Shown here: positions 6,029-11,525 of the stretch, in pieces
Numbering within the stretch: the first letter of the stretch is position 1
Layout: each line of letters starts with the position of its first letter
The notes under the pieces: generated by a model
The model's input: the letters and a program-made list of their open reading frames with translations, nothing else
Told to the model about the DNA's origin: nothing
Databases searched by the model: none
Made by a program: the position numbers and the translations under genes
From: Thermococcus eurythermalis
Lineage (GTDB): Archaea > Methanobacteriota_B > Thermococci > Thermococcales > Thermococcaceae
Length of the DNA: 64,000 nt
Direction: 5' to 3'
Assembly (NCBI RefSeq): GCF_000769655.1
Contig: NZ_CP008887.1
Span: 558,001 to 622,000 of the forward strand

Positions 6029-6164
6029 ATTCAAATCGGTCCAGTGCCTCATGCTGCTTAAAAATCCCCAAGGTGGGCAGAGCACCATGGGTTTCCACCG
6101 AGAATACCTTGCAGAGTTGGATTTATACGTATAGTACTATGAAGATACTTTTGTTTAACAAAAG

Positions 6165-6173
6165 TTTTATATG
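6165..6173 (+). promoter_or_regulatory. Putative promoter for the 6250-6553 RNA or the downstream operon
   Basis: TTTTATATG is a good archaeal TATA match in a stretch of more than 500 bases without a gene (6029-6584). Transcription would start near 6195. A second candidate, ACTCTTATAAG, lies at about 6227-6237 and would start transcription at about 6258, almost exactly at the first stem of the structured region. No coding capacity is visible between these sites and 6585. Confidence 0.4.
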
Positions 6174-6249
6174 GTTCAACTTTGCTCATTACATTCAACG
6201 GGCGTTAAACAGTCGAAACTCTTTTAAACTCTTATAAGTTAGTAAGACT

Positions 6250-6553
6250 TCGAAAAGGCCACCGAGAAACAACCCGACGAGATGAGGGGTTTCGCGTTAC
6301 CCTCCAGCATTGGAGGGTTGACGCCGTAAGGCGTCCTCTCAAGACTGCCCGCTGTGGCAGTCAAAAGCTCTGATGGGTGGCCTCTAAAATGATAACCCCG
6401 AACCGCTCTGCGGTAGGGGTAACGGGCCTTAGACCGGGCCTGCGGGCTGGAGCCGAAACCGGCAACGGGAGTAGGTGATGGGCCCGCAAACCCTCCCGTC
6501 AATGGCTAGGGTAGTTCGTTAGAACCCTTGCCCTTTAGGGCGGGGAGGAGGTC
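6250..6553 (+). ncRNA. Hairpin-rich putative RNA with an IS200/IS605-like right end (omega-RNA-like remnant)
   Basis: No gene fits here, but complementary stems are frequent. GGCCACC at 6257-6263 pairs with GGTGGCC at 6376-6382 and encloses smaller hairpins: CCCTCC/GGAGGG, GACGCC-GTAA-GGCGTC and GACTGCC/GGCAGTC. Next come ACCCC/GGGGT around ACCGC-TCT-GCGGT, and ACGGGAG/CTCCCGT. The 3' end at 6525-6545 is CCTTGCCC-TTTA-GGGCGGGG followed by AGGAGGTCA. That terminal hairpin and tail resemble the right ends of archaeal TnpB-bearing IS200/IS605 elements, which in known cases form the 3' part of the TnpB guide RNA. No TnpB zinc-ribbon or RuvC coding is present, so this would be an orphan remnant or a domesticated RNA. 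It could instead be a long 5' leader of the operon at 6585. The IS assignment rests on memory of such ends, not on a search. Confidence 0.45.
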
Positions 6554-6584
6554 AGAGTGAATGCCTTTAACGGAGGTGATATGT

Positions 6585-6971
6585 GTGAAAAATCCTGTGA
6601 AACTTGGATTGCTCCTCTGTCTTGTTAGTTTGGTCTCTCTGGCCAGCGTATCGGCATGGAGCTCGAAGGCTGTCTCTTCCTCATCAGGATGCTGGAGAAT
6701 GTATGACCATGACGCGGACACCCCCCAGTGGGCCCCAGATGAATGGGTCTGGGCGGGTGTCTCAGGATGGCTTAACATATGCGATGGAAAAATAACCGTA
6801 GACACTTCAACCGTGAGGCATGTTGCATACTGGTCCGGCGTCAAGGTGGACAGGTCGCGGGTGGTAAAATACACCGGAGCAAGGGTTTCATACACAAAGA
6901 TACCCTACGAGAGGTACAATGGTGATACCGGGGAGGCCTTTGCGCTGATTCCTCACTTCTACAAGCACTGA
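6585..6971 (+). CDS. Small secreted protein heading the ABC/PEGA operon
   Basis: About 128 residues. GTG 6585 is chosen because GGAGGTGAT ends five bases before it; an ATG at 6561 is in frame but has no such site. The N-terminus is a clear signal peptide (VKNPVKLGLLLCLVSLVSLASVSA). The mature part of about 104 residues is rich in Trp and Tyr (SSGCWRMYDHD, WAPDEWVWAGVSGW, YTKIPYERY) with two Cys (in SGCW and NICDG) that could form a disulfide, and it ends in IPHFYKH. I do not recognise the family. Size, secretion and position before an ABC-2-type transporter resemble Sec-dependent bacteriocin loci of the lactococcin 972 kind, but the sequence match I can see is too weak to claim it. Confidence 0.65.
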   Translation: MKNPVKLGLLLCLVSLVSLASVSAWSSKAVSSSSGCWRMYDHDADTPQWAPDEWVWAGVSGWLNICDGKITVDTSTVRHVAYWSGVKVDRSRVVKYTGARVSYTKIPYERYNGDTGEAFALIPHFYKH

Positions 6972-6986
6972 CTCGGGTGACCTCGC

Positions 6987-7994
6987 GTGCGGGCTGAGAT
7001 TGTGCTTGCCCTCTGCATTCTAATCTTTTATCTGGGAACCACCCCAGTGTCTGCCGCTCCGTTCTGGCTAAAGCCTGGAACTTATGTGAACTACACCGTT
7101 GTCGTCCCGGAGGACGCCCGCTTTGGGATAAACGACATCATGGTCAAAGTTGATATGCTCAACGAGCGCTCCTTTGAGGCGCTTTCTCGCTACCTAAACG
7201 TTTCTCGGGGTGAGAACTACGTTACCGTTCTCTGGCCGATGGGGACGTCTTACCTCTCCTTTAAAGTCCTCTCTGTGGACAATACGACGGCTAAAATCCG
7301 CGTCAGGCTTGAGCTCCATAACGTGGTAATTGAAAGTCCCGACATCGCGAACGCGAGCGTTCTGGTGTTCTCGGAAGTTCTTACGCTCGACCTTGAGACT
7401 GGGGCCTACATCGTAAACGGCACACCCGTTGCCAGGCCGAGCTTCTTCATTGACCCGTCCGCCCCTCCTGAGCCCGGCGCGCTTCTCCTGAACGTCACGG
7501 TTCCGGAGGGCGGAAACTGGGTGATGCGGGTTGAGAACCTGAGCTACTCCCGCTATAAAGACTTTGAAGTCCTGACATACCTGCGTACCTTCCATCCGCC
7601 GTTCATATATCTTGAATCCGATGTGGTGCCGTTCAGCCTCAGCGGCCCCAACTACAGCTGCTCTGGCGGAACTTCGTTCTCGGCGCTCTATGACTCATCG
7701 ACCGGCCTTATGATAGCATCAGACCTGAGTGCAACCCCTCCCGAATTCGTCCTCATGGGGATTATCAGATCCAGCATGGAGGACGTGAACGCTTCCAGGG
7801 CCCTCCGCAGATTCCTCTCTGAGGGTGCAGACAAGCGCTGGCTTCAGGGCTGGAACCTCTATGCGACCAACGTGGGGTTTCCAGAGGAACGTTCGTTAGA
7901 GAGGCCGACCAGCCCCCTCGCATACTACTTTGCGTTCACTGTTCTTGTCGCCTTTGCAGTCGGTTTTAGGGACTTTAGGAGGTGGATTGGATGA
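6987..7994 (+). CDS. Extracytoplasmic protein with C-terminal membrane anchor
   Basis: 335 residues from GTG 6987 with GGGTGA eight bases upstream. There is a signal peptide (MRAEIVLALCILIFYLGTTPVSAA), a beta-rich ectodomain with many N-glycosylation-type sequons (NYTV, NVSR, NTTA, NGTP, NLSYS), and one terminal helix (LAYYFAFTVLVAFAVGF) followed by the short basic tail RDFRRWIG. No catalytic motif stands out and I do not recognise the family. The stop codon overlaps the next start (ATGA at 7991-7994), so it is translationally coupled to the permease gene and probably works with that transporter at the cell surface. Confidence 0.75.
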   Translation: MRAEIVLALCILIFYLGTTPVSAAPFWLKPGTYVNYTVVVPEDARFGINDIMVKVDMLNERSFEALSRYLNVSRGENYVTVLWPMGTSYLSFKVLSVDNTTAKIRVRLELHNVVIESPDIANASVLVFSEVLTLDLETGAYIVNGTPVARPSFFIDPSAPPEPGALLLNVTVPEGGNWVMRVENLSYSRYKDFEVLTYLRTFHPPFIYLESDVVPFSLSGPNYSCSGGTSFSALYDSSTGLMIASDLSATPPEFVLMGIIRSSMEDVNASRALRRFLSEGADKRWLQGWNLYATNVGFPEERSLERPTSPLAYYFAFTVLVAFAVGFRDFRRWIG

Positions 7995-8761
7995 AAATTC
8001 TTCGCTGGGAGCTTGGAGACCCGCTGAACCTCGCCGCGTTTGCCTTTGGTTTCCTGCTCATCGGCACTTCCCTGTTCATTGGGGGGATTAGGGTATCGAA
8101 TCACTTTATGGTGTTCCCTCCTGAGGAGGACTCTCTCGTGGCTTTTTCATACCGGGCCATGGGGGTCAGCGTTCCCCTTCTGTCCGAAAGGGTGTATACG
8201 TCTTTTATTCTGACCGCCGTCCTCCTGTCATCTCTGGTTCTGAGAAACGATAGAGACACTCGCTTTGCTCTTTCAGTTTACTCCCTACCCGTGGGGAGGA
8301 AAAGGCTTGTTCTCTCCAAGGTTCTGGCAGTTTTTGTACTGCTGTTCACGGCCTCATTTCTCCCGTTTATTCTGACGGTTGCCTACATCTTCGGCGATAC
8401 CGGAAGCTTCATTCTCAGTGCCTTCCTCTCGAAGGGTCTGCTCCTGGTATACCTCCTGTACTGGGCTCTGGCTGTCTTTTATGCAGTTGCAGTTTCCTCT
8501 TTCGTGGCTATAATCTCCCTCAACACCTTCGTCTCAATAATGGCTGGACTTTCCGCCCTCTACGTTCCCTATTCTCTGGGGGCATCATTTCTACCCCCTA
8601 AGGTTCTCAACACTGCAATACTCCAGGCGTACACTTCTGAAATCGCTCTTTCCGGCTGGATTCCCCACCTGCTCTCGTCCGCTTTTCTCCCCTGCGTTTT
8701 TCTTCCGGTTCTGCTTATCATCCTGACTACTTACGTGGCAGAAAGGAGGGATGTCAAATGA
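7991..8761 (+). CDS. ABC-2-like multispanning permease
   Basis: 256 residues from ATG 7991, after GGAGGTGG. About six hydrophobic segments are visible: FAFGFLLIGTSLFIGG, SFILTAVLLSSLVL, AVFVLLFTASFLPFILTVAYIF, GLLLVYLLYWALAVFYAVAVSSFVAIISL, FVSIMAGLSALYV and PCVFLPVLLIILTTYVA. Between them YSLPVGRKRLVLSKVLAV matches the cytoplasmic coupling stretch of ABC-2 permeases. It overlaps both neighbours by four bases and lies two genes before the ATPase at 9174, its likely partner. Confidence 0.8.
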   Translation: MKILRWELGDPLNLAAFAFGFLLIGTSLFIGGIRVSNHFMVFPPEEDSLVAFSYRAMGVSVPLLSERVYTSFILTAVLLSSLVLRNDRDTRFALSVYSLPVGRKRLVLSKVLAVFVLLFTASFLPFILTVAYIFGDTGSFILSAFLSKGLLLVYLLYWALAVFYAVAVSSFVAIISLNTFVSIMAGLSALYVPYSLGASFLPPKVLNTAILQAYTSEIALSGWIPHLLSSAFLPCVFLPVLLIILTTYVAERRDVK

Positions 8762-9177
8762 GGCTCTTCAGGCTCACGCTTTTTCTTGTAGCTGTCTTCA
8801 CTCTGGTGGCACTCGTCATCCAGCACATTGAACTTTCCAAGCCTTACTCGGACTTTGCAGTAGATGCATCGTGTGCCGTCGTTCCCTCCGCGAGGGTTCT
8901 TGCCCTCAACATGAACGGACAGGACAACTATTCGGTGGCTTTCTACGATCCAGTGGAGGGCAGATTTCTCTACTCGTCAGAGCTTGTCGGCTCGGGCAGG
9001 GCGGTCGTTGAGTTCAATCACTCGGGCCCGTACTGCGTTGTTGTGTCTTCCCAGGCGCCGGCTTCGGTGGCAATCTCGGGCATGGGGAGCTACCCCTCTT
9101 CGAGGGCGCTTTCAATTGAGTACCTTGTTGGCGGCACATCTGCGCTCCTGTTTGTCCTTACGGGGGTGCGGAGATGA
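8758..9177 (+). CDS. Two-helix membrane protein of the ABC/PEGA operon
   Basis: 139 residues. An N-terminal helix (LFRLTLFLVAVFTLVALVIQHI) and a C-terminal helix (LVGGTSALLFVLTGV) flank a small extracytoplasmic beta-rich domain of about 85 residues with sequons (NYS, NHS) and a Cys pair (CAVV, YCVV). ATGA overlaps join it to the permease upstream and the ATPase downstream, so it is probably made in fixed ratio with them and may be an accessory subunit. I do not recognise the family. Confidence 0.7.
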   Translation: MRLFRLTLFLVAVFTLVALVIQHIELSKPYSDFAVDASCAVVPSARVLALNMNGQDNYSVAFYDPVEGRFLYSSELVGSGRAVVEFNHSGPYCVVVSSQAPASVAISGMGSYPSSRALSIEYLVGGTSALLFVLTGVRR

Positions 9178-9830
9178 TAATCCGGACAAAACACCTTACA
9201 AAACGTTTTGGCCACATAACAGCGCTCGATTCGGTCAGCATCGGAATTGGTGAGGGCGTTACCTTAATCCTGGGGCCCAACGGGGGAGGCAAGAGCACCT
9301 TTCTGAACCTCTGTGCTGGAACGTACAGGCCCACTGAAGGTGTGATCCGGGTCTTCGGGGGCGATCCCTGGGCCGACGCGAACGTTAGACAGAGGTTTGG
9401 TGTGTCTTTTGACCCTCCTGCCCTACCGAAGCACAGGACGGGGCGTGAGTGGCTTGAGTTCCTGGCTGAGATTAGGGGCGGGTCTACGTCGGATATCATT
9501 GAGGCGTTTTCACTTGGGGGCTTTCTCGATAGGAGGATTTCCACGTACTCGGCAGGAATGATGAAGCGGTTGAGCATAGCATCTGCGTTCGTGGGGGAGC
9601 CAGAGCTTGTCCTGCTGGATGAGCCGCTTGTGAACCTTGATTTTGATGCGATACCTGAAATCGTCGGCCTGTTGGAGCGTTTTGCCTCTGAGGGTCTGTC
9701 TATTGTTGTGGTTTCTCACATATGGAAGCCGTTCCTTGAGTTCGCGGACAGGGTGGTAGTCATAGCAGGAGGGAGGGTGAAGCATGATGGTAGCGTGGAG
9801 GAGGTTGCTTCTGCTCTCAGTCTTATTTAG
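9174..9830 (+). CDS. ABC transporter ATP-binding protein
   Basis: 218 residues, the length of a bare nucleotide-binding domain. Walker A GPNGGGKST, a signature region STYSAGMMKRLSIASAF, Walker B ELVLLDEPLVNLDFDA and switch His in VVVSHIWKPF are present. The canonical LSGGQ is altered to YSAGM, common in ABC-2 exporters. It is coupled to the permease genes upstream, and the following PEGA gene starts 47 bases before its end. Confidence 0.88.
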   Translation: MIIRTKHLTKRFGHITALDSVSIGIGEGVTLILGPNGGGKSTFLNLCAGTYRPTEGVIRVFGGDPWADANVRQRFGVSFDPPALPKHRTGREWLEFLAEIRGGSTSDIIEAFSLGGFLDRRISTYSAGMMKRLSIASAFVGEPELVLLDEPLVNLDFDAIPEIVGLLERFASEGLSIVVVSHIWKPFLEFADRVVVIAGGRVKHDGSVEEVASALSLI

Positions 9831-11424
9831 CGGGCTCTTGGCGCCGTCTGCATCTTCGACCCCTGTGTTTTTTGAGTTTGACGGCCAGGTAAGGGCTGGA
9901 AACCTGACTTCGGTGGCCCCTATCGTGCTGAACCTGAGTGAAGGGGACTGGCCCGTTGAGCTCTCCGTTGGAAACGTTACCCTCGTTCTCAACGTGAGCG
10001 TTGGTGATGCTCCCCTGGTGGTTGAGATTAATGAGTCGCTTCTGAGAAGGTCATTGGGCGGTTTCTCGACAGCCACAGTCTTTCTTTCAGGCAGAGAGGT
10101 GCCTTCAATAGAATCCGAGAAGACCCCGTGTATGGCGGCCCCGGATTGGAGTGAGGGTGAAGGCGAGAGCTCGGCGAGGGGGCCTTCAAGGCCGGTTCCA
10201 ATGGAAACTGTTCTCTTCTCGCCGTGTCGCGAAAGGGAATACCTTCTCCTTCCCAGCGGCGTTCCTGTGGTCGCCGAGTATGGGGGTGTCAAAAAATACT
10301 GCCTCATCAGGATTTCTGAGGGAGGCGGCGGCTGGAGCTCACAGGGAGGGTGCTCCTTCGCGTATATTGAAAACGCGGTATCTTCCGTCCCCGTGGAGAT
10401 AACATCGAGACCCTGCAACGCTACCGTCTACATCAACGGCTTTCATCTCTTCGGGGAGTGGTTCACTCCTATGGTGGTTCACCTTCCGCTCACTCCTGAG
10501 CTGAGCCCCTACAATGTATCCATCGGTGCGAGAGGCTATCCATTTGTCTCTGGCGTCGTGAATTCAACTGAAAAAAGGGTAGCCCTTTATGCGGATCTAT
10601 CCGCTCTCTCACGCGTTGTTTTGGTCCACTCCGGGGCGGGAGTACTTGAAGTCCTAACCGAGCCTGCCAATGCTAGTCTAAAAATCTTTGCGGGAAATAA
10701 TGAGGTTTTCTCTGGTAGAAGTCCCATTAAACTCGTCCTTCCTGAGGGAGTTTACACGCTCAGTGCGTCTCTTCCAGGGTATGGGGGCATCGTTGAAAAC
10801 GTGACAGTCCCCGCCAACGAAAGCGTTTCGCTCGACCTCACCCTTAGCCTTCTGCCTGCGAACCTCCGTATTACCACTGTCCCTTCCGGGGCAGAGGTGA
10901 GAATTGGGAACGTAACCTGTACTTCTCCCTGCTCCCTGAACCTGACTGCAGGTGTCTACAACGTTTCTGCTTCGCTTCCAAGGTATCTTCCAAGCTCTGT
11001 CCTTGTTGGGCTCGCACCCGGAGAATCACAGGCCATCTCCCTGGAACTCGTTCAGATGCCCGTCCTGAGGATTTTAACATCGCCAGAGGGTGCTACCGTT
11101 ACTGTGGGTGGCGAACAGTGCTTCACTCCCTGCAACATCACGTTGGCTCCCGGCAGCTACAGCGTGACCGTAGAAAAAAGCGGCTATGAGAAAGCCGTGC
11201 TTGTGGTATCCCTTAACGCGGGTGACGTGAGCGTGGTCAACGTCTCCCTGAGGAAAGAACCGTTGCCAACTTCACCTTCCCCCGTGGACGCCCTTAAAAC
11301 CAGTCACGAAGTCAACAAAGTTACGGAGACTGTGTCGCGGCAGGAGGGGATAAACTGGAAACCGGCACTGGTAGTTTTTTCATTGCTGGCTCTTGTCGTT
11401 GTGTTTGCCAAAATGCGTGGGTGA
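9784..11424 (+). CDS. PEGA-repeat surface protein anchored at the C-terminus
   Basis: 546 residues from ATG 9784 (GAGGGTGA just upstream), overlapping the ATPase gene by 47 bases. After a signal peptide (WRRLLLLSVLFSGLLAPSASS) comes an N-terminal domain of about 200 residues, then about four PEGA modules: ITSRPCNATVYINGFHLFG, LTEPANASLKIFAGNNEVF, ITTVPSGAEVRIGNVTCTSPC and LTSPEGATVTVGGEQCFTPC. The last two carry the usual TPC/SPC Cys pair that can form a disulfide. A Pro/Ser linker leads to the anchor helix PALVVFSLLALVVVFAKMRG. PEGA domains are surface domains of unknown binding specificity, often on S-layer-associated proteins. It closes the 6585-11424 operon and mirrors the NEW3 protein that closes the ABC operon at 1022-4883. 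Confidence 0.8.
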   Translation: MMVAWRRLLLLSVLFSGLLAPSASSTPVFFEFDGQVRAGNLTSVAPIVLNLSEGDWPVELSVGNVTLVLNVSVGDAPLVVEINESLLRRSLGGFSTATVFLSGREVPSIESEKTPCMAAPDWSEGEGESSARGPSRPVPMETVLFSPCREREYLLLPSGVPVVAEYGGVKKYCLIRISEGGGGWSSQGGCSFAYIENAVSSVPVEITSRPCNATVYINGFHLFGEWFTPMVVHLPLTPELSPYNVSIGARGYPFVSGVVNSTEKRVALYADLSALSRVVLVHSGAGVLEVLTEPANASLKIFAGNNEVFSGRSPIKLVLPEGVYTLSASLPGYGGIVENVTVPANESVSLDLTLSLLPANLRITTVPSGAEVRIGNVTCTSPCSLNLTAGVYNVSASLPRYLPSSVLVGLAPGESQAISLELVQMPVLRILTSPEGATVTVGGEQCFTPCNITLAPGSYSVTVEKSGYEKAVLVVSLNAGDVSVVNVSLRKEPLPTSPSPVDALKTSHEVNKVTETVSRQEGINWKPALVVFSLLALVVVFAKMRG

Positions 11425-11461
11425 GGTTGGATATTGGGTCAAATGACCTCTCCCCCGTAAT

Positions 11462-11509
11462 CTTTTTAAGACCTTCCGCATAGAATTCAAATGGTAACCA
11501 AAGGTTACT
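11462..11509 (+). promoter_or_regulatory. kaiC-like gene promoter with an inverted repeat over the start site
   Basis: The TATA-like TCTTTTTAAG at 11461-11470 is followed about 25 bases later by GGTAACC-AAA-GGTTACT at 11493-11509, an inverted repeat with six-base perfect arms (GTAACC/GGTTAC). It would lie on or just after the transcription start, the place where archaeal repressors commonly bind. The ribosome binding site AGGAGGTGA at 11512-11520 follows directly. Confidence 0.5.
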
Positions 11510-11525
11510 AAAGGAGGTGACGCTC

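Follow-up and report, generated by a model that had tools for sequence, protein, structure and literature searches.

A conserved Thermococcales gene module with interchangeable small proteins and co-varying partners, probably a polymorphic effector/immunity system

In the loci of the enterocins AS-48 and MR10 a bacteriocin gene is accompanied by a multi-part immunity ATP-binding cassette (ABC) transporter (As-48EFGH or Mr10EFGH), in which Mr10E tracks the bacteriocin and Mr10FGH track the species (PMC10598978). The type VI secretion system (T6SS) arrays of V. cholerae have a pair first and orphan immunity genes behind, and these orphans match the pairs of other strains (PMC5361080). Within the order Thermococcales, the published module nearest to the system considered here is VARTIG, a hypervariable surface module that its authors likened to polymorphic toxins (PMC8416519). 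Here we describe an operon of six genes, A to F (Table 1), found in a stretch of 64,000 nucleotides of the Thermococcus eurythermalis genome (NZ_CP008887.1, positions 558,001 to 622,000, hereafter the window), together with its relatives in other genomes. We consider that this module is probably a polymorphic secreted-effector/immunity system, in which a small, predictedly secreted protein (A) is paired with an anchored ectodomain protein (B) and served by an ABC exporter.

The likeness to each of these systems is partial. With the T6SS arrays the modules share the order of pair and orphans and the cross-strain matches of the orphans, a likeness of layout and not of compared proteins; the arrays serve contact-dependent injection and have no ABC exporter. 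Mr10E and B can be likened by description, not by sequence, the former being a four-helix membrane protein and the latter an anchored ectodomain, and the enterocin systems are bacterial, with circular or leaderless peptides that are not Sec-secreted. VARTIG is also a variable module of the same order, but it is built on a large immunoglobulin-domain protein, and its text contains neither "ABC transporter" nor "PEGA" (PMC8416519). The ATPase E scores 1.8e-33 with TIGR03740 of the LanFEG type, below the cut-off; this is a generic ABC similarity, no lanthipeptide genes were seen and the accessory proteins lack that similarity. In the literature searched we found no title or abstract opening describing this module. 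Characterised archaeal weapons are very few, and none for Thermococcales turned up in the literature searched.

The comparison rests on 116 loci, including that of the window, picked through matches to A, B or D (L060 and L062 were replaced by the longer L106 and L107, and about nine D matches that scored low or lay on short contigs were left out). B is present in 109 of them, B, C, D and E were all called in 72, and F is found in 42. Among 115 genomes of the phylum, A-like sequences, degenerate copies counted, occur in 26, representing 6 of 12 genera; B and D reach 57 and 56 genomes because distant operons share B-C-D-E, without F. The grouping of the genes persists even in relatives whose proteins are only 30-40% identical. 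In the cases open to computation, the ratio of nonsynonymous to synonymous substitution rates (dN/dS) lay at 0.06-0.39 in A-type and A'-type proteins and at 0.17-0.35 in B, so that all three are under purifying selection. The preserved grouping and this selection together make the operon more than a chance assembly, and the six genes are a real, conserved Thermococcales module. Two gene orders recur, a-B-C-D-E(-F) and a-B(-B)-F-C-D-E, where a is the small-protein slot; a single genome has A-B-A-B-B-A-B-F-C-D-E (L053).

Upstream of B we found family A (34 loci), A' (19), a3 (11), a4 (6) or a5 (2), and at L130 and L162 still other open reading frames (ORFs) with an N-terminal hydrophobic stretch. 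Comparison of the small families by hhalign gave probabilities of 4-46%, and 89% for a3 with a4 over an N-terminal stretch starting in the signal peptides; no homology between families was demonstrated by this profile-profile comparison. Judged by sequence, at least five families that show no convincing similarity of profile occupy the slot. Nearly all the ORFs recognised by the five profiles (76 of 80) sit directly upstream of B, the four exceptions being L052 (where B is visible nonetheless), L102 and L103 (degenerate A relics, no B) and L181 (a3). Profile searches of whole genomes placed A' in 23 and a3 in 17 of the 115, with few further places, and the sample leaves out at least those at G054:C10, G039:C57, G039:C100, G056:C23, G046:C143, G088:1721426 and G070:C143. 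A non-exhaustive look for relatives of A outside Thermococcales, with one peptide pattern and one contig scan, returned four loci, all of them Thermococcaceae.

The first line of evidence is co-variation. For each operon gene we asked by Mantel test how far its pairwise protein distances correlate with those of the small protein. The C-terminal half of A' follows the adjacent B closely (r 0.89, 17 pairs) and follows nothing else: r was 0.04 with the second B (n 10), 0.02 with C (n 14), -0.03 with D (n 17) and -0.04 with E (n 15). In the same operons the adjacent B is itself uncorrelated with C (0.08) and with the second B (-0.00). Clusters of A' nest onto those of B and cut across those of D. 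A common flanking gene occurs at 21 of 23 A'-type loci, and an elongation-factor-2-like gene at 16, so these represent one chromosomal locus. There (14 loci compared), the distances of the flanking gene follow those of E (0.64) and show no correlation with those of A' (0.01) and B (0.10), whereas A' and B correlate at 0.78; the exporter has thus been inherited with the chromosome while the A'-B cassette was exchanged. In family A (28 pairs) everything correlates with everything (0.52-0.92), and after controlling for E the partial correlation with B was 0.77 for the C-terminal half and 0.33 for the N-terminal half. For a3 (10 pairs) the small protein and B correlate at 0.81-0.88. In the sense of co-variation, then, variants of the small protein are paired with a cognate partner.

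Two side observations may bear on recombination. The signal peptide of A' (residues 1-22) has a mean distance of 0.11 as against 0.36-0.56 in the mature protein, which is unusual for a signal peptide, and it may be a recombination anchor. Between the window and its closest relative (L039, 4810-5214) the synonymous divergence (dS) is 0.39 for A and 0.09 for B, which suggests a recombination restricted to A.

The second line of evidence is the B genes that have no partner. Among 147 intact B, a recognised and intact small protein precedes 64 and is missing before the other 83. More than half of the latter (48 of 83) share 60% identity or more with a partnered B at some other locus; when partnered B of separate loci are compared with one another, 3.5% of pairs reach 60%, the median being 23%. 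Where a partnerless B shares its locus with a partnered one (26 cases), it is usually nearer to a foreign partnered B (22 of 26, binomial p 0.0005; median identity 66%, versus 31% to its own), and in all 19 loci holding both kinds the partnered B stands first. The window's genome itself provides an example in L117 (C1:1911600-1916136), where a second B stands behind the A'-B pair and shares 29% identity with the B of that pair but 79% with the partnered B of L144. In the other direction, an intact small protein nearly always adjoins an intact B (64 of 68); of the four exceptions, L052 does have a B, L045 and L145 have one that is broken in the assembly, and the fourth is L181. An earlier sequence-only reading of the window had counted the absence of the small protein from otherwise identical operons as a point against itself. 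Such operons do exist, literally in five cases (L123, L124 and L136-L138), and their B share 86-93% identity with partnered B found elsewhere, as is predicted for orphan immunity. Putative orphan immunity genes that match partnered ones elsewhere are present in these loci. Cognate co-variation, orphans behind the current pair and the rarity of unpartnered small proteins together make up an effector-immunity pattern. A third paralogous operon of the same genome (L116, G000:C1:956248-959592) has its a3-type gene broken by a stop or frameshift and B-C-D-E intact, and is a possible immunity-only remnant.

The AlphaFold2 model of B (predicted local distance difference test score, pLDDT, 75.8; predicted template modelling score 0.74) was best aligned by VIA-align with LmcA (Z 8.6 over 191 residues, root-mean-square deviation 5.1), followed by YmcC-like lipoproteins (7.8), DUF1849 (7.5), RseB/MucB (4.4-5.0) and LolA3 (3.9), which we take to form one lipid-binding group. 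Foldseek returned no match for the model at E 0.001. The ectodomain may tentatively be read as a lipid-binding half-barrel of LolA/RseB type, and this stays a suggestion because, by the program's own warning, Z of 7-8 can arise without relationship.

We propose the following mechanism. A would be exported via Sec and cleaved, as its signal peptide indicates, and its site of action would be the envelope of related archaea without the matching B. B, which would be held on the outer face of the membrane and may bind hydrophobic ligands in a half-barrel, would recognise its own A variant, as the co-variation suggests, and hand it to the shared C-D-E exporter, which by analogy with immunity of the LanFEG and AS-48 types would clear A from the producer's membrane. 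New A-B cassettes would enter upstream, and older A genes would be lost with their B kept as orphan immunity.

Several observations weigh against this proposal. In family A the distances of the small protein go with those of C, D, E and F as well (0.76-0.92), so that the decoupling is clear mainly in A', and in a3 its correlation with C or E is still about 0.6. Relatedness inflates the p-values of the Mantel tests, and part of the signal comes from a single A' cluster. Selection on these genes is purifying and not diversifying, and within the clade of the window B and F are less conserved than A. For three orphans (L099-L101) the identity to any partnered B does not exceed 32%, several in L107 and L064 are about equally near their own partnered B, and for some of the orphan B there may be small partners that belong to families not yet recognised. 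The Z-scores behind the fold of B are middling, and the model of A, built with four sequences, is all-beta with a pLDDT of 56.8, too poor for fold assignment; its Foldseek and VIA-align results were uninformative, so that the absence of an Lcn972 chain among the matches listed carries no weight. Finally, there is no known toxin domain, target or killing activity.

The main rival, which we consider unlikely, is a ligand-receptor system (pheromone or kin recognition), with A as the signal, B as its receptor, the exporter relaying or clearing it and orphan B eavesdropping on others. Cognate co-variation and orphan B would be expected of pherotypes as well, and the B model has remote matches in RseB/MucB, which are sensors. 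However, B has no cytoplasmic signalling domain, only a short tail after its C-terminal transmembrane (TM) helix, the conserved operon includes neither regulator nor kinase, and orphans piling up in tandem are more typical of immunity genes. A little less likely again is a role in envelope assembly, A being a surface protein delivered or anchored by B while the exporter moves a lipid or glycan, and its variation being antigenic (e.g., under pressure from viruses). This would fit the resemblance of the B model to lipid-binding lipoproteins and LmcA, the nature of PEGA proteins as surface proteins, and the combination in A' of an extremely conserved signal with a variable mature part, as in an antigenic protein, but it gives no account of retained partnerless B that match the partnered B of other genomes. 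It is quite improbable that we are dealing with an ordinary exporter operon with a fast-evolving accessory secreted protein, whose co-variation with B is the hitch-hiking of neighbours in recombination. A and B do adjoin, related sequences inflate the tests, and in families A and a3 the small protein, B, C and E are all correlated with one another. Yet in A' operons B lies as near to C or to the second B as A' lies to B and correlates with neither, so local linkage alone is insufficient.

The sequence-only reading had compared the operon with bacterial loci of the lactococcin 972 (Lcn972) type, in which a Sec-secreted bacteriocin is followed by an immunity transporter. The general layout, a Sec-type secreted small protein and then ABC genes, is indeed common to both, but the membrane partners differ: the bacterial loci encode a DUF1430/integral-membrane protein and an ATPase, the window an ABC-2 permease, an anchored ectodomain protein and a PEGA protein, and neither Pfam nor NCBIfam gave a match to DUF1430 or a bacteriocin-associated integral membrane protein among the proteins of the window. 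No sequence of family A (0 of 20) or A' (0 of 15) matched PF09683 even at E 10, and the profile found nothing in the whole T. eurythermalis genome, while it recognises authentic Lcn972 at 8.7e-15. The profile-profile alignment of A with Lcn972 (probability 20-60%) was essentially one of signal peptides. Hence, although A precedes ABC genes and is Trp/Tyr-rich and all-beta in its model, the chance that it is a true archaeal Lcn972-family bacteriocin is negligible, there being no match to PF09683 and no profile-profile match past the signal peptide. The wider idea of a Sec-secreted antagonist with an immunity transporter has gained strong, if indirect, backing from the co-variation of A with B and the orphan pattern, and only the Lcn972 identity is lost. 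To call it new for archaea was too broad, since archaeocins (halocins and sulfolobicins) are known.

Table 1. Features of the operon and its upstream region, in positions of the window
Feature	Position	Strand	Description
TATA-like box TTTTATATGG	6165..6174	+	matches the box upstream of A in 6 aligned relatives
Repeat element	6240..6556	+	between TATA box and gene A; IS200/605 right-end-like by eye
A, small secreted protein (predicted)	6585..6971	+	128 aa, signal ~1-24, GTG start
B	6987..7994	+	signal peptide, beta-rich ectodomain, C-terminal TM anchor (predicted)
C, ABC-2 type permease	7991..8761	+	PF12730 E 0.002, sub-threshold
D, small protein	8758..9177	+	N- and C-terminal TM helices, external domain (predicted)
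E, ABC transporter ATPase	9174..9830	+	PF00005 1e-21
F, PEGA-repeat protein	9784..11424	+	PF08308 2e-39; signal, C-terminal TM anchor; accessory

All six predicted ORFs are present where they had first been placed. They had been described as joined by ATGA overlaps, which is so at three of the five junctions (B/C, C/D and D/E), A and B being separated by 15 nucleotides (nt) and E and F overlapping by 47 nt. The product of gene A, with ribosome site GGAGGTGAT, has the hydrophobic signal, the ca. 104 mature residues and the two mature cysteines (Cys36, Cys66) ascribed to it, and the motif of its family is WDHDxDxxxWxxxEWVWAGVxGxxxxCDG. By their profile scores C and E are a predicted ABC-2 type exporter, an ABC ATPase with an ABC-2 permease; the C paralogue in L116 exceeds the cut-off as an ABC-2 permease (4.1e-8), and the best sub-cut-off NCBIfam scores of E are of the DrrA and lantibiotic-protection-like type, including that with TIGR03740. 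No Pfam or NCBIfam family was matched by A, B or D, and nothing came near a cut-off when the other small families and B were compared with NCBIfam. Against Pfam, family A' gave stray, weak single-member matches (best Ntox47, 0.0065, in 2 of 15) with no family-match pattern. The profile of A found none among PDB sequences up to E 10, PADLOC returned for the operon generic ATPase matches for E alone, and Rfam found RNase P elsewhere in the window and nothing at the operon. Other PEGA-domain proteins are encoded in the same genome at 1775-1888 of the window (minus strand) and at G000:C1:1495327-1495944, one of them in a 1455 aa open frame. A secretome study lists a PEGA protein of T. barophilus in supernatants (PMC10667668).

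Elsewhere in the T. eurythermalis genome the repeat element has 7 long matches and 14 shorter ones; it is missing at the same position in L040-L045. By eye it resembles an IS200/605 right end or a guide-RNA remnant, and it had no Rfam match. As it parts the TATA box of A from the start codon, expression of A may be altered here. Each of the three A genes in L053 has its own TATA-like leader. The A' leaders are conserved, with CCCGGGCAGGAGGGTC before the start (e.g., L117 12137-12195, minus strand), and are often an inverted repeat overlapping the ribosome-binding site; an RNA structure suspected there by eye found weak support in RNAalifold (3 pairs at -2.5).

In the window the operon lies between a 168-aa gene and a KaiC-like gene (interval 6029-11516). 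By our own count over 61 genomes, 13 of them unresolved, these two genes are 77-158 nt apart at 30 sites in the genus, enclose this operon in 8 genomes (in 6 of these a single contig spans both flanks) and enclose other cargo in 11. The interval is a cargo hotspot of the genus (L215-L225), its alternative cargo including a 357-aa P-loop ATPase, a methyltransferase-like gene paired with a 490-aa one, and a lipoprotein and membrane protein pair. One metagenome-assembled genome has both the empty and the occupied site (G039:C4 and G039:C68) and is therefore probably a mixture of two strains.

We hold a wider claim more tentatively, as somewhat less probable than the effector/immunity reading itself: that these modules form an undescribed Thermococcales superfamily of polymorphic secreted antagonists, in which several families of no detectable likeness share one slot and whose cognate anchored receptors, of lipid-binding type, plug into a shared ABC exporter, with tandem orphans recording past encounters, a plug-in receptor immunity not known from bacteria or archaea. 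If true, about half of the genomes of the phylum would carry B/C/D/E-type modules (B 57, D 56 of 115), and specificity would reside in an exchangeable receptor feeding one exporter. The strain-specific pairs would be testable in genetically tractable hyperthermophiles and would be a source of thermostable antagonistic proteins, and the Thermococcales would possess a natural kin-discrimination locus beside elongation factor 2.

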